Shown: positions 33,870-37,758 of the stretch, piece by piece | How the letters are laid out: every line of letters begins with the position of its first letter | Numbering within the stretch: position 1 is the first letter of the stretch | DNA from: Pseudomonadota bacterium | Lineage (GTDB): Bacteria; Pseudomonadota; Gammaproteobacteria; Competibacterales; Competibacteraceae | Assembly (NCBI GenBank): GCA_018240295.1 | Contig: JAFEGB010000026.1 | Span: 1-47,745 of the forward strand | Reading direction: 5' to 3' | DNA: 47,745 nucleotides | The notes under the pieces: model-generated | What the model was told of the DNA's origin: nothing | What the model saw: only the letters and a program-made list of their open reading frames with translations | The model's database searches: none | Position numbers and translations under genes: made by a program

Positions 33870-34202
33870 TCATTTGGCGGCGTGGTAGCTGCGGATGCCG
33901 AGGATGTTGCCGCGGGCGTCGATGTCGACCGTCGCCGCCGGCCCGGCCTTGTTGCCGCCGTACAGCACACGGCAACGGCCCTCATGGCGCTCGACGAAGG
34001 TCGGCGCCGGCCAGTCCGAGGCCGCGAGCGGCGGCAGACCGGCCGGGAGGGCGGTGACGCGGTCGTAATGCTCCCGGGCGGGTGCACCGGCGATGCGGTG
34101 CAGTTCGTCCACGGACAGCCCGCAACCGGGCTCGGCGACCACCGGACCCAGCATGGCGAGGCTGCAGAGTCCGGCAAGGAGGGGATCAAGCGGACGAGGC
34201 AT
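33870..34202 (-). CDS. Small secreted protein of unknown function
   Basis: A protein of about 110 residues with a likely signal peptide (PLDPLLAGLCSLAMLGPVVAEP). The mature part is short and has Cys in EPGCGL and GRCRVLYGGNKAGP, which may be disulfide-bonded, and ends DIDARGNILGIRSYHAAK. I do not recognise a family. It lies 82 bp upstream of the PEP-CTERM gene on the same strand and may be co-transcribed with it. A GTG at 34214 adds four residues. Confidence 0.7.
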   Translation of the reverse strand: MPRPLDPLLAGLCSLAMLGPVVAEPGCGLSVDELHRIAGAPAREHYDRVTALPAGLPPLAASDWPAPTFVERHEGRCRVLYGGNKAGPAATVDIDARGNILGIRSYHAAK

Positions 34203-34318
34203 CGGACGCTCCACGCGGCAGGCTCCGCACGGGATCCGGCCGCTACCACATCAGCATCCCTGAAGGGATTCAGCGGTGTCGGCCCTGACAGGTGAGGTAG
34301 TACAAGGATCGTTCCAAT

Positions 34319-34341
34319 GTTTTTCCGCAATGCGGAAAAAC
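34319..34341. promoter_or_regulatory. Perfect 23-nt palindrome, probable operator
   Basis: Arms GTTTTTCCGCA and TGCGGAAAAAC are exact reverse complements around one central base. A single-base loop cannot form a hairpin well, and no T-run follows, so a dimeric DNA-binding protein is more likely than a terminator. It lies about 117 bp upstream of the small secreted protein's start at 34202. Confidence 0.55.
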
Positions 34342-34422
34342 AAATCAACATCATGTTTTATATCGTTTTTTTGCAGACACAGCTCAACGCACGAAAGCCG
34401 GCCACACGATTATCTGTAAAGT

Positions 34423-34497: not shown

Positions 34498-34526
34498 TTG
34501 ACCGGTTGCCGGGGCATCCGGATACT
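34498..34526 (+). promoter_or_regulatory. Sigma70-type promoter of an orphan transcript
   Basis: TTGACC at 34498-34503 (5 of 6 to TTGACA) and GATACT at 34521-34526 (4 of 6 to TATAAT) with an exact 17-nt spacer. The predicted start is near 34533, immediately before a hairpin. No protein gene follows on this strand before the terminator. Confidence 0.55.
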
Positions 34527-34532
34527 GCACTG

Positions 34533-34624
34533 CAACATCCTCCTGTCGGATGTTTCTCCTCTGTATCTGGTGGTCGCAATACTCTCCTTGAGCCGGAGCG
34601 CGAACAGCGCACCGGCTTTTTTTT
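34533..34624 (+). ncRNA. Predicted small RNA with repeated CUCC motifs
   Basis: A predicted transcript of about 92 nt. It begins with a 7-bp hairpin, AACATCC and GGATGTT (34534-34554), whose loop side carries CCTCCTG. Next comes a single-stranded TTTCTCCTCTG, then a mini-hairpin CTC-TCCTT-GAG, and finally a strong intrinsic terminator. Three CUCC-type stretches can pair with Shine-Dalgarno sequences, the design of several trans-acting bacterial sRNAs. Promoter and terminator are on the plus strand while both flanking genes are on minus, so the terminator serves no visible gene. Identification as an sRNA is inference; conservation has not been checked. Confidence 0.55.
34592..34624 (+). terminator. 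Strong intrinsic terminator without a gene
   Basis: Stem GCCGG-A-GCGC and GCGC-A-CCGGC around a GAACA loop (34592-34616), followed directly by eight T (34617-34624). It is the clearest Rho-independent terminator in the window and works only on the plus strand. Confidence 0.85.
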
Positions 34625-34742: not shown

Positions 34743-35000
34743 TCAGCCGCCGTCCCCGTCCGGCTTCGGCCGCCGGTGCGAGCCGTCGCACAGCGGCAGC
34801 TTCGCGCTGCGCCCGCAGCCGCAGAGCCACAGCTGGCCGTCATCGGCGACGCGCAGCAGCGCGGGGCTGCAGCCGGGATGATCGGCGTGCGAGCCGTCGC
34901 AGTACGGCGGGTTGCCGGTGTGGCCGCAGCGGCAGACGCTGACCGCCGTGCCCGCCGGGCGCTCGATGATCCAGGGACTGCCGCGTTCGAAGAGCTGCAT
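34743..35000 (-). CDS. CDGSH-type iron-sulfur protein with two motifs
   Basis: An 85-residue protein with two CDGSH iron-sulfur binding motifs, CRCGHTGNPPYCDGSH (residues 23-38) and CGCGRSAKLPLCDGSH (60-75). Each binds a 2Fe-2S cluster through three Cys and one His. The double-motif form is common in bacteria and is thought to serve electron or cluster transfer. A GGGGAGG site precedes the ATG. It follows the MscS-type gene by 28 bp on the same strand. Confidence 0.95.
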   Translation of the reverse strand: MQLFERGSPWIIERPAGTAVSVCRCGHTGNPPYCDGSHADHPGCSPALLRVADDGQLWLCGCGRSAKLPLCDGSHRRPKPDGDGG

Positions 35001-35028: not shown

Positions 35029-37758
35029 TCAACGGCTGCCGCGGTCCGGGCCGTCGTCGTCGTCCCGGCGCGGATCATTGGCCTCGGCGAGCGTCGACAC
35101 CGCGTACAGCGCCGCCGCCGCCGCCGCTGCCTGCGCGCCGTTGTCGACCGGCAGCGCCGGACCGGTATCGATGCCCGAAGCCTCGATGCCGGCCGGCACC
35201 GGCGGCACCGGCCGGGTCGTGACGACCGCCGCCGGACGGCTGCCCTGCGCGTGACGCAGCGTCGGGCCGAGCTTGTCGACCAGGGTCTCGATGCGTTCGA
35301 GATCGCGCAGCCGCACCTCGGTCTGCGTGTACGGAATCTCGATGCCGTGCTCGCGGAAGGCCTTGAAGATCGCAAAGCGCAGATCCGAGGCGACGCGCCC
35401 CTTCAGCTCGACGTTGGTCAGGAAGGCGCGCAGCTCGAAGTCCAGCGAGCTCGCCCCGAAGGCCTTGAACATCACGCTCGGTGCCGGCCAGCGGCTCACG
35501 TCCGGATGCACGCTCGCACAGTCGAGCAGGATGCGCTGCACGGCCTCGGGGTCGGATTCGTAGGCGACGCCGACCAGAATCTCGACGCGGCCGAAGGTGT
35601 CCTTGTGCGTCCAGTTCAGCACTGCCTGCGACAGCAGCATCGAGTTCGGGATGATCACCGAGGCGCGCTGCGAGGTTTCGAGTTCGGTCGCCCGCACGTT
35701 GATGCGCCGCACCGTGCCTTCGTTGGTGCCGACCACGACCCAGTCGCCGACCTTGATCGGCCGCTCGGCGAGCAGGATCAGCCCCGAGACGAAGTTGCTG
35801 ACGATGTTCTGCAGGCCGAAACCGATGCCGACCGACAGCGCGCCGGCGAGCAGCGCGGCCTTCGACAGGTCGATGCCGAGCGTCGAGACCGCCACCGCGA
35901 TCGCGATCGCGAGCCCGACGTAGCCGATGCCGCTCTTGAGCGAGTTGCGCAGGCCGGCGTCGAGGTGGGTGTGCGGCAGCACGCGCTCCTCCAGCACGCG
36001 CTGGCTGACGCGGCTCGCGGCGAGCACCGCCGCGAACAGCGCCATGGCGAGCAGGCCATCGAGCAGCGACAGCGTCATGCCGCCGAGCTTGAAGCCGTAC
36101 AGCAGCGCATTCAGGCCGTTCTGGATGTCGGCCCAGCGCACGCCCCAGCGCAGCAGCAGCAGCACGCCGGCGAGCGCGAGCAGCGTCAGGTCGATCAGCA
36201 GCATCAGCCAGAAGGCCAGGGTCTGCGAGCTGCCGGCCTTCAGCGCGAACATTCGCGCCAGCGGCCCGCGATGCGCCCCCTCGACCAGCACCAGCCGGTC
36301 GACGGCTTCGCCGATCAGCCGGCGCACGATCACGAAGCCGGCCAGCCCGAGCGCGGTCCAGACCAGGTTTTCGAGCAGGTAGCGCGCGAGGTTGACGTAG
36401 CCGAGCAGCGAGGCAACCGGCGCGGCGACCGCGATCAGCGCGACCGCAAAGCGCATCAGCGCCCAGAACGGCTCGGCCAGCGTCGAGCGATTCGGTGCCG
36501 CCTCGCCCTCCGGGCGCTGGCCGGCCAGCGGATCGAGCGCATCGGCGGCCTCGACCGCCGGCGCCTCGCCCTCGGTGCGCTGCCAGGTATCGCGGCGCGT
36601 GACCGTCAGCAGCGCGAGCCCGAGCATGACGCTGCCGATGCACACCACCAGCGCCCGCCCTTCCTCGGCGAGGTTCAGCGCCGGGGCGGCCAGCGACGCG
36701 AGCAGCAGCGGTGCGAACACCGCGGCGATCAGGTTCAGCCGCCTCGACAAGGCCCGGGCGCTGCGATCGTCGAGGCCGGTCAGCCGCCAGGCCGGGGCCG
36801 AAGGCGCCAGCGCGGCGCTGTCGATGCCGGTGACCAGCACGTAGAAGATCACCGCGACCGTGAAGCCGATCAGCATCGGCCGGCCCGGTGCCTCGACCAG
36901 CCCGGTCACGTGCAGCGTCAGCGCGACCGCGGCCGCCGCCAGACTCGGCAGCAGCGCCCGGCAGCAGCCCTCGGCCAGCGCCGCCCCGACGCGGCGGCTG
37001 TAGCTCGGGGCCGCCTCGATGTCGTTGCGCCCGTAGCGCGCCAGCAGCCAGCGCCGCAGCCACCAGGCCGCCGCCAGCCCGATCGCGAGCACGAACAGCG
37101 TGCCGGCGCTCTTCGCGAACAGCGGTGCGAAGCCGTTGGACTGCCAGCGCGCCACCGGACCGGCCGAAAGCTGCTGCAGGCCGAGCGCGAACTGCGTGCC
37201 GCCGAGCGACCAGACATCGGCTTCGAGCGTGCTCGGGCCACGCGCCAGCAGGCTCGATGCGATGCGTTCGCGGATCGCGCGCGAGGCATCGTTGATCAGG
37301 CCGTTGGCGCGCGCTTCGAGCACGTCGAGCTGCTTGGCCCGGCCTTCGGCGGCGCCGAGATCGGCGCCGAGCTGCTGACGCTGGCGGGCCACGTCCTTCG
37401 CCTCGGGCGGCTGGCCCTCGGCCGGCGGCGACCCGAGGGCCTCGACCAGCTGCTGCGCGGCGGCCACCTTGCCGAGCGCCTCGCCGCGGCTGGCCTGCAC
37501 GGCGCTGCGCACGCGCTCGGCCTCGGTGCGGATCTTCTCGAGATCGGCTTCCTCGCTTCTGCCGGTGGCGAGCTGCCGGCCGAGGCCATCGAGGGTGGCC
37601 TTCCAGTCGTTGAGCAGGTCCGCGAGCGCACGCGGCGGCGGCGGATCGGTCTGCGCGGGCAGCGACAGCGGAGTGCCCAGGCCGATCAGCAGCAGGACGA
37701 TGGCGAGAACCCGCAGCGCGCCCCGGGCGCGCTGCGGGCAGGGATTCGGACGGAACAT
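35029..37758 (-). CDS. Mechanosensitive channel protein, DUF3772 plus MscS domain
   Basis: A 909-residue inner-membrane protein of the large MscS type. It has a signal peptide (ending SLPAQ), a periplasmic coiled-coil part with DUF3772-like sequence (about residues 40-190), about ten membrane segments (200-600), and the MscS core. The pore helix reads AALLAGALSVGIGFGLQNIVSNFVSGLIL, then ERPIKVGDWVVVG and VIIPNSMLLSQAVLNW. It opens when membrane tension rises and lets solutes out on osmotic downshock. The C-terminus is Pro/Ala/Asp-rich. No potassium regulation domain is seen. Confidence 0.92.
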   Translation of the reverse strand: MFRPNPCPQRARGALRVLAIVLLLIGLGTPLSLPAQTDPPPPRALADLLNDWKATLDGLGRQLATGRSEEADLEKIRTEAERVRSAVQASRGEALGKVAAAQQLVEALGSPPAEGQPPEAKDVARQRQQLGADLGAAEGRAKQLDVLEARANGLINDASRAIRERIASSLLARGPSTLEADVWSLGGTQFALGLQQLSAGPVARWQSNGFAPLFAKSAGTLFVLAIGLAAAWWLRRWLLARYGRNDIEAAPSYSRRVGAALAEGCCRALLPSLAAAAVALTLHVTGLVEAPGRPMLIGFTVAVIFYVLVTGIDSAALAPSAPAWRLTGLDDRSARALSRRLNLIAAVFAPLLLASLAAPALNLAEEGRALVVCIGSVMLGLALLTVTRRDTWQRTEGEAPAVEAADALDPLAGQRPEGEAAPNRSTLAEPFWALMRFAVALIAVAAPVASLLGYVNLARYLLENLVWTALGLAGFVIVRRLIGEAVDRLVLVEGAHRGPLARMFALKAGSSQTLAFWLMLLIDLTLLALAGVLLLLRWGVRWADIQNGLNALLYGFKLGGMTLSLLDGLLAMALFAAVLAASRVSQRVLEERVLPHTHLDAGLRNSLKSGIGYVGLAIAIAVAVSTLGIDLSKAALLAGALSVGIGFGLQNIVSNFVSGLILLAERPIKVGDWVVVGTNEGTVRRINVRATELETSQRASVIIPNSMLLSQAVLNWTHKDTFGRVEILVGVAYESDPEAVQRILLDCASVHPDVSRWPAPSVMFKAFGASSLDFELRAFLTNVELKGRVASDLRFAIFKAFREHGIEIPYTQTEVRLRDLERIETLVDKLGPTLRHAQGSRPAAVVTTRPVPPVPAGIEASGIDTGPALPVDNGAQAAAAAAALYAVSTLAEANDPRRDDDDGPDRGSR

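Follow-up and report, generated by a model that had tools for sequence, protein, structure and literature searches.

A candidate PhaR-controlled, multicopy anti-Shine-Dalgarno small RNA family in Competibacteraceae

What is encoded by a short intergenic segment that carries a promoter, a hairpin and a terminator on one strand while both of its neighbouring genes lie on the other? The question arises at positions 34498-34624 of contig JAFEGB010000026.1 (GenBank assembly GCA_018240295.1), the whole 47,745-nucleotide (nt) sequence of which is hereafter referred to as the window and which constitutes contig C188 of a 4.06-Mb genome; the host appears to be a congener of Plasticicumulans acidivorans within Competibacteraceae. 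A sequence-only reading of the window had proposed an orphan, trans-acting small RNA (sRNA) with three motifs complementary to the Shine-Dalgarno (SD) sequence, and its anatomical details hold up base by base: the TTGACC-17-GATACT promoter, the 5' hairpin and the eight-T terminator are in place, CTCC occurs at 34540, 34556 and 34584, both flanking genes (a 114-aa open reading frame, ORF, and a CDGSH gene) are on the minus strand, and the terminator serves no gene, with nothing downstream on the same strand. A feature unnoticed in that reading, a PhaR-type operator at the predicted transcription start, is the most informative element of the locus. The best explanation, to which a probability of about 0.7 is assigned, is that the segment encodes a trans-acting anti-SD sRNA, present in several copies and repressed by PhaR, which would work like MmgR of Sinorhizobium meliloti and the RNAs of the Rfam family RF02278.

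The term orphan proves to be wrong. A covariance model of the 5' part of the sRNA (R1, window copy included) finds seven to eight copies in the host genome, namely on C188, C5 and C270, as tandem pairs on C107 and C286, and a weaker one on C342, together with one to seven copies in each of nearly all sampled genomes of Competibacteraceae. Tandem pairs are frequent, with the copies 130-280 bp apart. Because R1 contained the window copy, a second model (R2) was built without the host genome, from 20 copies of other genomes; it recovers all other copies of the host genome, and its only good match in the window is the predicted gene (33.4 bits, E 5e-5, E-values of covariance models being rough). 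Plain blastn of the locus returns a few short intergenic matches in relatives, with the same layout, and across 96 genomes it returns mostly noise apart from the copies in G001 (P. acidivorans, the only congener sampled), G007, G010 and G013.

The copies have in common hairpin 1 (CAACATC..GATGTTG and compensated variants thereof), a CU-rich anti-SD stretch and the block (U)UUGGUGGUU, and the extracted copies possess their own terminator and T-run. Pairing of hairpin 1 holds in 99.1% of the alignment cells, with 23 double-changed cells, a level reached by none of 500 shuffles; six of the eight terminator pairs covary as well, and the covariation of both elements exceeds that of shuffles and slid controls. 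Moreover, the locus is syntenic with contig C12 of P. acidivorans, where the CDGSH-MscS pair (MscS being 60% identical) is accompanied by two tandem copies, so that the sRNA is conserved in the relative that keeps the flanking genes. Strong conservation, covariation and the dedicated promoter and terminator in relatives thus argue for the trans-acting anti-SD sRNA that had been proposed. As for its three motifs, the middle CUCC (34556) occupies the family's conserved position, and the other two are peculiar to the window copy.

What would control such an RNA? In most relatives the promoter reads TTGACGCANTGCARCA-N-TATACTGCANTGCAACATC, with the palindrome YGCRNYGCR at about -30 and at -6. In S. 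meliloti this palindrome is the PhaR binding site, defined by consensus and by electrophoretic mobility shift assay (EMSA), and through it PhaR represses the sRNA MmgR, likewise by EMSA (PMC12542648). Of the 51 family copies, 46 contain the palindrome, where shuffled sets average 5.25 and never exceed 11. Nearly all of these copies have it at one or both of two positions, namely -6 (28 copies, exactly there) and about -30 (39 copies, between -29 and -32). Of the two sites, the window copy has just the one at -6, TGCACTGCA at 34526-34534, and no other exact YGCANTGCARCA occurs in the window. An extended box, compared with its reversed control, is found 42 versus 5 times in the host genome, 43 versus 13 times in P. 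acidivorans and 21 versus 2 times in G007. The host genome encodes PhaR (PF07879, E 6.9e-29), five phasins and five PhaC_N matches. With the palindrome in its promoters and PhaR and polyhydroxyalkanoate (PHA) genes in the genome, the family shows the marks expected of the PhaR regulon, and the promoter of the sRNA copies is probably repressed by PhaR.

For 26 of the 31 phasin genes in this genome set, the same palindrome lies upstream, no more than 250 nt from the start that was assigned; about 25 or slightly fewer of these have it at a clear promoter distance (the exceptions being G006, where it is at -180 and the start call is uncertain, and G024:C16, whose start call is implausible); one of the box-preceded genes was confirmed as a phasin by Pfam. 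Phasin promoters of Competibacteraceae (L118-L141, L111-L115) often contain two PhaR palindromes, spaced by about 27 or 60 nt, and are usable for defining the PhaR regulon in accumulators of PHA and glycogen.

In the proposed mechanism, PhaR, the PHA sensor, would occupy the operator at -10/+1 as long as PHA is lacking, and in most relatives it would also cover the -35 hexamer. Granule formation would titrate PhaR away, whereby phasin genes and sRNA copies would be derepressed together; the RNA, once transcribed, would expose its CU-rich stretch and, presumably with the aid of Hfq, pair with the SD regions of target mRNAs. Their translation would be lowered, and the use of carbon or other nutrients would be retuned during storage.

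The nearest known family is RF02278, the 'toxic' or double-hairpin sRNAs, whose members are ncS03, ncS05, ncS27, ncS62, bdhR1 and Bordetella S17, the last being described as a relative (PMC11722255). At the gathering threshold, an Rfam scan of the window yields no match at the locus; the RF02278 model gives the window copy 15.8 bits and its paralogues and relatives 28-34 bits, all under the gathering score of 50. Its alignment to a family member places UCUCCUCC, UCCUCC and GGUGG in register, and R2, built from Competibacteraceae only, in turn detects the RF02278 loci tested in f108 (E 6e-6 to 0.04 in 80 kb), f108 being the taxonomic family that scores above the RF02278 cut-off in 41 of 61 genomes and, going by the published range of RF02278, apparently Burkholderiales. 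By these comparisons, the Competibacteraceae sRNA is a distant, sub-threshold relative of RF02278. The two groups share a short CU-rich anti-SD RNA, UCCUCC before (U)GGUGG, an intrinsic terminator, multiple copies and a PhaR-type box in the promoter. They differ in that the RF02278 model lacks hairpin 1 and has a stable hairpin around UCCUCC, whereas the Competibacteraceae copies often have two operators and stand in tandem. Some of the latter can form CCAAA[UCCUCC]UUUGG, of which RNAalifold keeps only two pairs; the window copy cannot.

The f108 loci have the loose PhaR box in 27 of 30 cases and the strict box TGCRNYGCAVCA in 25 of 30, where chance would give 0.125; the box usually lies shortly before a TATACT-like -10 hexamer. 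PhaR is present in all 30 f108 genomes with tested loci, as opposed to 4 of 28 genomes of the other RF02278-like set. Counted at sub-threshold scores, RF02278 is present in 103 of the 369 genomes sampled from the class (GTDB Gammaproteobacteria, in which the old betaproteobacteria are included), a range far wider than the Rfam family name suggests. Many of these RF02278-like loci, which come from many families of Gammaproteobacteria (L221-L248), have a conserved core CUCCUCCAUCCUCCUUUGGUGGUUU with a terminator of their own and a different conserved promoter, TTGACA..ATATTAGA..CATACTGATT, nearly always lacking a PhaR box.

According to PMC5688073, Burkholderia cenocepacia expresses four RF02278 copies, which slow growth through their CU-rich region, and three of them share an unexplained upstream motif, with their regulation and the cause of their accumulation stated to be unknown. 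Herbaspirillum seropedicae likewise has four RF02278 RNAs (PMC7011215). Papers on these RNAs also report toxicity in E. coli or growth attenuation on overexpression (PMC4603805, PMC5688073), as well as higher levels in glucose medium, under starvation and in biofilm, and a predicted action at the ribosome-binding sites of carbon transport and metabolism genes (the last two in PMC5688073, PMC4603805, PMC10987360). A joint mention of PhaR and RF02278 was not found in the accessible portions of this literature; subscription papers, such as that of 2019 on NcS27, may note the link. The presence of the same PhaR site in front of the related RF02278 sRNAs of betaproteobacteria points to a role of these RNAs in retuning translation while the cell fills with storage polymer. 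On balance it seems somewhat probable that beta- and gammaproteobacteria commonly control PHA in part through anti-SD sRNAs repressed by PhaR, a branch of regulation that has gone unrecognised; RF02278 and the Competibacteraceae family would then be one lineage, in which the formation of granules is coupled to an RNA of several copies that restrains the use of nutrients, in parallel to the alphaproteobacterial MmgR.

If the PhaR link is true, it identifies the regulator so far missing for the RF02278 sRNAs and explains their rise in glucose medium and in biofilm; the prediction for Cupriavidus necator is then that loss of phaR makes the RNAs constitutive and loss of phaC silences them. Plasticicumulans and Competibacter are key accumulators of PHA and glycogen in bioplastic production and wastewater treatment, and the link would provide a handle for better PHA yield; the literature search found no paper pairing either genus with an sRNA.

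MmgR (alpha-r8, RF00519) resembles the family in its length of about 80 nt, its anti-SD motif, its tie to PHA storage and its repression by PhaR/AniA through YGCRNYGCR, which in the family is predicted. It differs in having NtrC input and an operator between -35 and -10, and sequence kinship is not demonstrable: RF00519 has no match in the window and scores 18.3 bits on the family member L212, with a cut-off of 41. The kinship with alphaproteobacterial CUCC-bearing sRNAs that was suggested from the sequence is therefore functional at best, and that with the C-rich-loop sRNAs of Xanthomonas finds no backing, as no Xanthomonas family of Rfam matches at the gathering threshold or at E up to 10. 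NmsR of Neisseria and SorX of Rhodobacter are CU-rich anti-SD sRNAs as well, the former being described as structurally similar to the double-hairpin RNAs (PMC5688073); their matches to the family lie under the Rfam thresholds, those of the SorX model at 24.9-26.5 bits with a cut-off of 46.6. A permissive Rfam scan also returned rsmX on the minus strand (E 0.022), which was rejected because the match spans the promoter, lies far under threshold and is without support in relatives.

Several findings weigh against a PhaR-repressed anti-SD sRNA at this locus. The window copy is divergent, with no operator at -35, no UCCUCC before UGGUGGU and an insertion in the linker. Five of the 51 copies have no PhaR box, and the loose palindrome is frequent in GC-rich DNA (99 occurrences in the window, which is below shuffles), so that the argument depends on the strict form of the site, on its fixed positions and on the family as a whole. 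The co-occurrence of box and PhaR gene is confounded by phylogeny, the sampled groups being whole clades. Furthermore, 24 phasin start regions pair with their own sRNAs no better than 250 background genes, whose starts were called by a simple script (one-sided p 0.89), and a crude target prediction on about 860 kb each of P. acidivorans and the Competibacteraceae relative G020 gave nothing significant. In that prediction, secreted proteins and lipoproteins were slightly favoured as targets (p 0.002 and 0.001), a preference confounded with SD strength, and no match among 41 ortholog pairs survived multiple testing.

The divergence of the window copy, which may be weak or dying, raises the alternative that it is a decaying paralogue of a family that functions elsewhere and no longer regulates targets itself. 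Besides the missing -35 operator, the missing UCCUCC and the linker insertion, its R2 score is among the lower ones (33.4 bits, as compared with 46-62 for most other copies of the host genome). Decay would have spared, however, the intact hexamers with ideal spacing, the +1 operator, the perfect stem of hairpin 1, GGUGGU and the strong terminator, and drift would not produce as many as three CUCC tracts within 60 nt. This alternative is considered rather unlikely.

It is also conceivable, with a rather low likelihood, that the sRNA is a real member of the family whose palindrome is read by another regulator or overlaps the promoter by descent, its role being general growth or carbon control with no link to PHA. 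The widespread gammaproteobacterial RF02278-like RNAs, with their different promoter, nearly always lack the box and mostly lack PhaR, what is known of RF02278 phenotypes relates to growth and carbon sources, and phasin mRNAs are not preferred partners. Against this stand the identity of the palindrome to the experimentally defined PhaR site, its occurrence in the phasin promoters of the same genomes, and its retention at two fixed positions, placed as in known PhaR-repressed promoters.

A third alternative retains PhaR and assigns the RNA an MmgR-like negative feedback, in which it would mainly repress phasin translation upon PhaR titration. Repressor and site are the same as for MmgR, whose loss raises PhaP1 and PhaP2 (PMC8401924), and in G007 an sRNA copy immediately precedes a phasin gene and shares its strand (G007:C12:104497 and 104729, L084). 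Such feedback is nonetheless improbable as the main role, since the phasin start regions show no excess of pairing even though their SD sequences are slightly stronger than background; the better guess is that the RNA adjusts uptake and metabolism more broadly, in line with reports on RF02278.

At least three CTCC per 60 nt occur in 0.04% of the 60-nt stretches of the window, both strands counted. The scores for promoter, fold and terminator are modest when taken one at a time. TTGACC-17-GATACT is the sole sigma-70-like promoter in 1.6 kb (0.2 expected from shuffles), the 95-nt fold of -30.2 kcal/mol compares with a shuffled mean of -22.6 (z -2.7; 3 of 200 shuffles equally good), and a simple terminator scan overlooked the 34590-34618 stem because of its two mismatches. 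Such values, and the short ORFs that cross the region, would leave room for a chance promoter- and hairpin-like sequence, an attenuator or a leader peptide, a reading that is refuted and given next to no credence in view of the copies conserved in tens of genomes with covariation of hairpin 1 and terminator, the R2 match at the locus and the lack of a same-strand gene downstream. Similarly, a small ORF from the ATG of the hairpin was rejected because its frame is not kept: the distance from ATGTT to CTCC varies by one or two bases among the copies. The features of the locus are collected in Table 1.

Table 1. Positions in the window of the sRNA elements and of the neighbouring genes.
Feature	Position	Strand	Remark
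-35 hexamer TTGACC	34498-34503	+	Consensus scan; paralogue counterpart TTGACGCANTGCA
-10 hexamer GATACT	34521-34526	+	17-nt spacer after TTGACC; TATACT in most relatives
PhaR-type operator TGCACTGCA(ACA)	34526-34537	+	Overlaps the end of -10 and the predicted transcription start; YGCRNYGCR consensus (PMC12542648)
Predicted sRNA gene, ~92 nt	34533-34624	+	5' end predicted near 34533; R2 match (33.4 bits, E 5e-5)
Hairpin 1	arms 34534-34540 / 34548-34554	+	Fold and family covariation
CUCC no. 1	34540-34543	+	Foot and loop of hairpin 1; only in window copy
CUCC no. 2 (UCUCCUC)	34555-34561 (CTCC at 34556)	+	Conserved single-stranded anti-SD tract of the family
GGUGGU	34569-34574	+	Best-conserved family block, usually UUUGGUGGUU
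CUCC no. 3	34584-34587	+	Within linker insertion unique to window copy
Intrinsic terminator	34590-34624	+	Imperfect stem 34590-34618; eight T 34617-34624
114-aa ORF	33870-34214	-	Neighbour without Pfam match
CDGSH iron-sulfur protein	34743-35000	-	Neighbour; Pfam PF09360, E 1.5e-19; synteny marker common to P. acidivorans
MscS-type mechanosensitive channel	35029-37758	-	Beyond CDGSH gene; 60% identity to protein of P. acidivorans locus

Other copies have neighbours of their own. Two near-identical tandem copies (G000:C107, L074 2413 and 2693) adjoin a lactate permease gene (PF02652), and the pair at L075 is near a gene resembling esterases and polyhydroxybutyrate depolymerases that scores just under the Pfam cut-off. 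Strong matches to the Rfam family 5_ureB_sRNA (RF02514) lie close to sRNA copies at L079 1460-1749 and L082 1109-1395; they are probably conserved urease coding sequence, not RNA.

Within the window, a perfect 25-bp palindrome, TGTTTTTCCGCA-A-TGCGGAAAAACA, lies at 34318-34342 between the minus-strand ORF 33870-34214 and the sRNA. It was not seen at the P. acidivorans locus. Its core CGCAATGCG and AT-rich arms also match the S. meliloti PhaR motif, and it is possibly the operator of that ORF.
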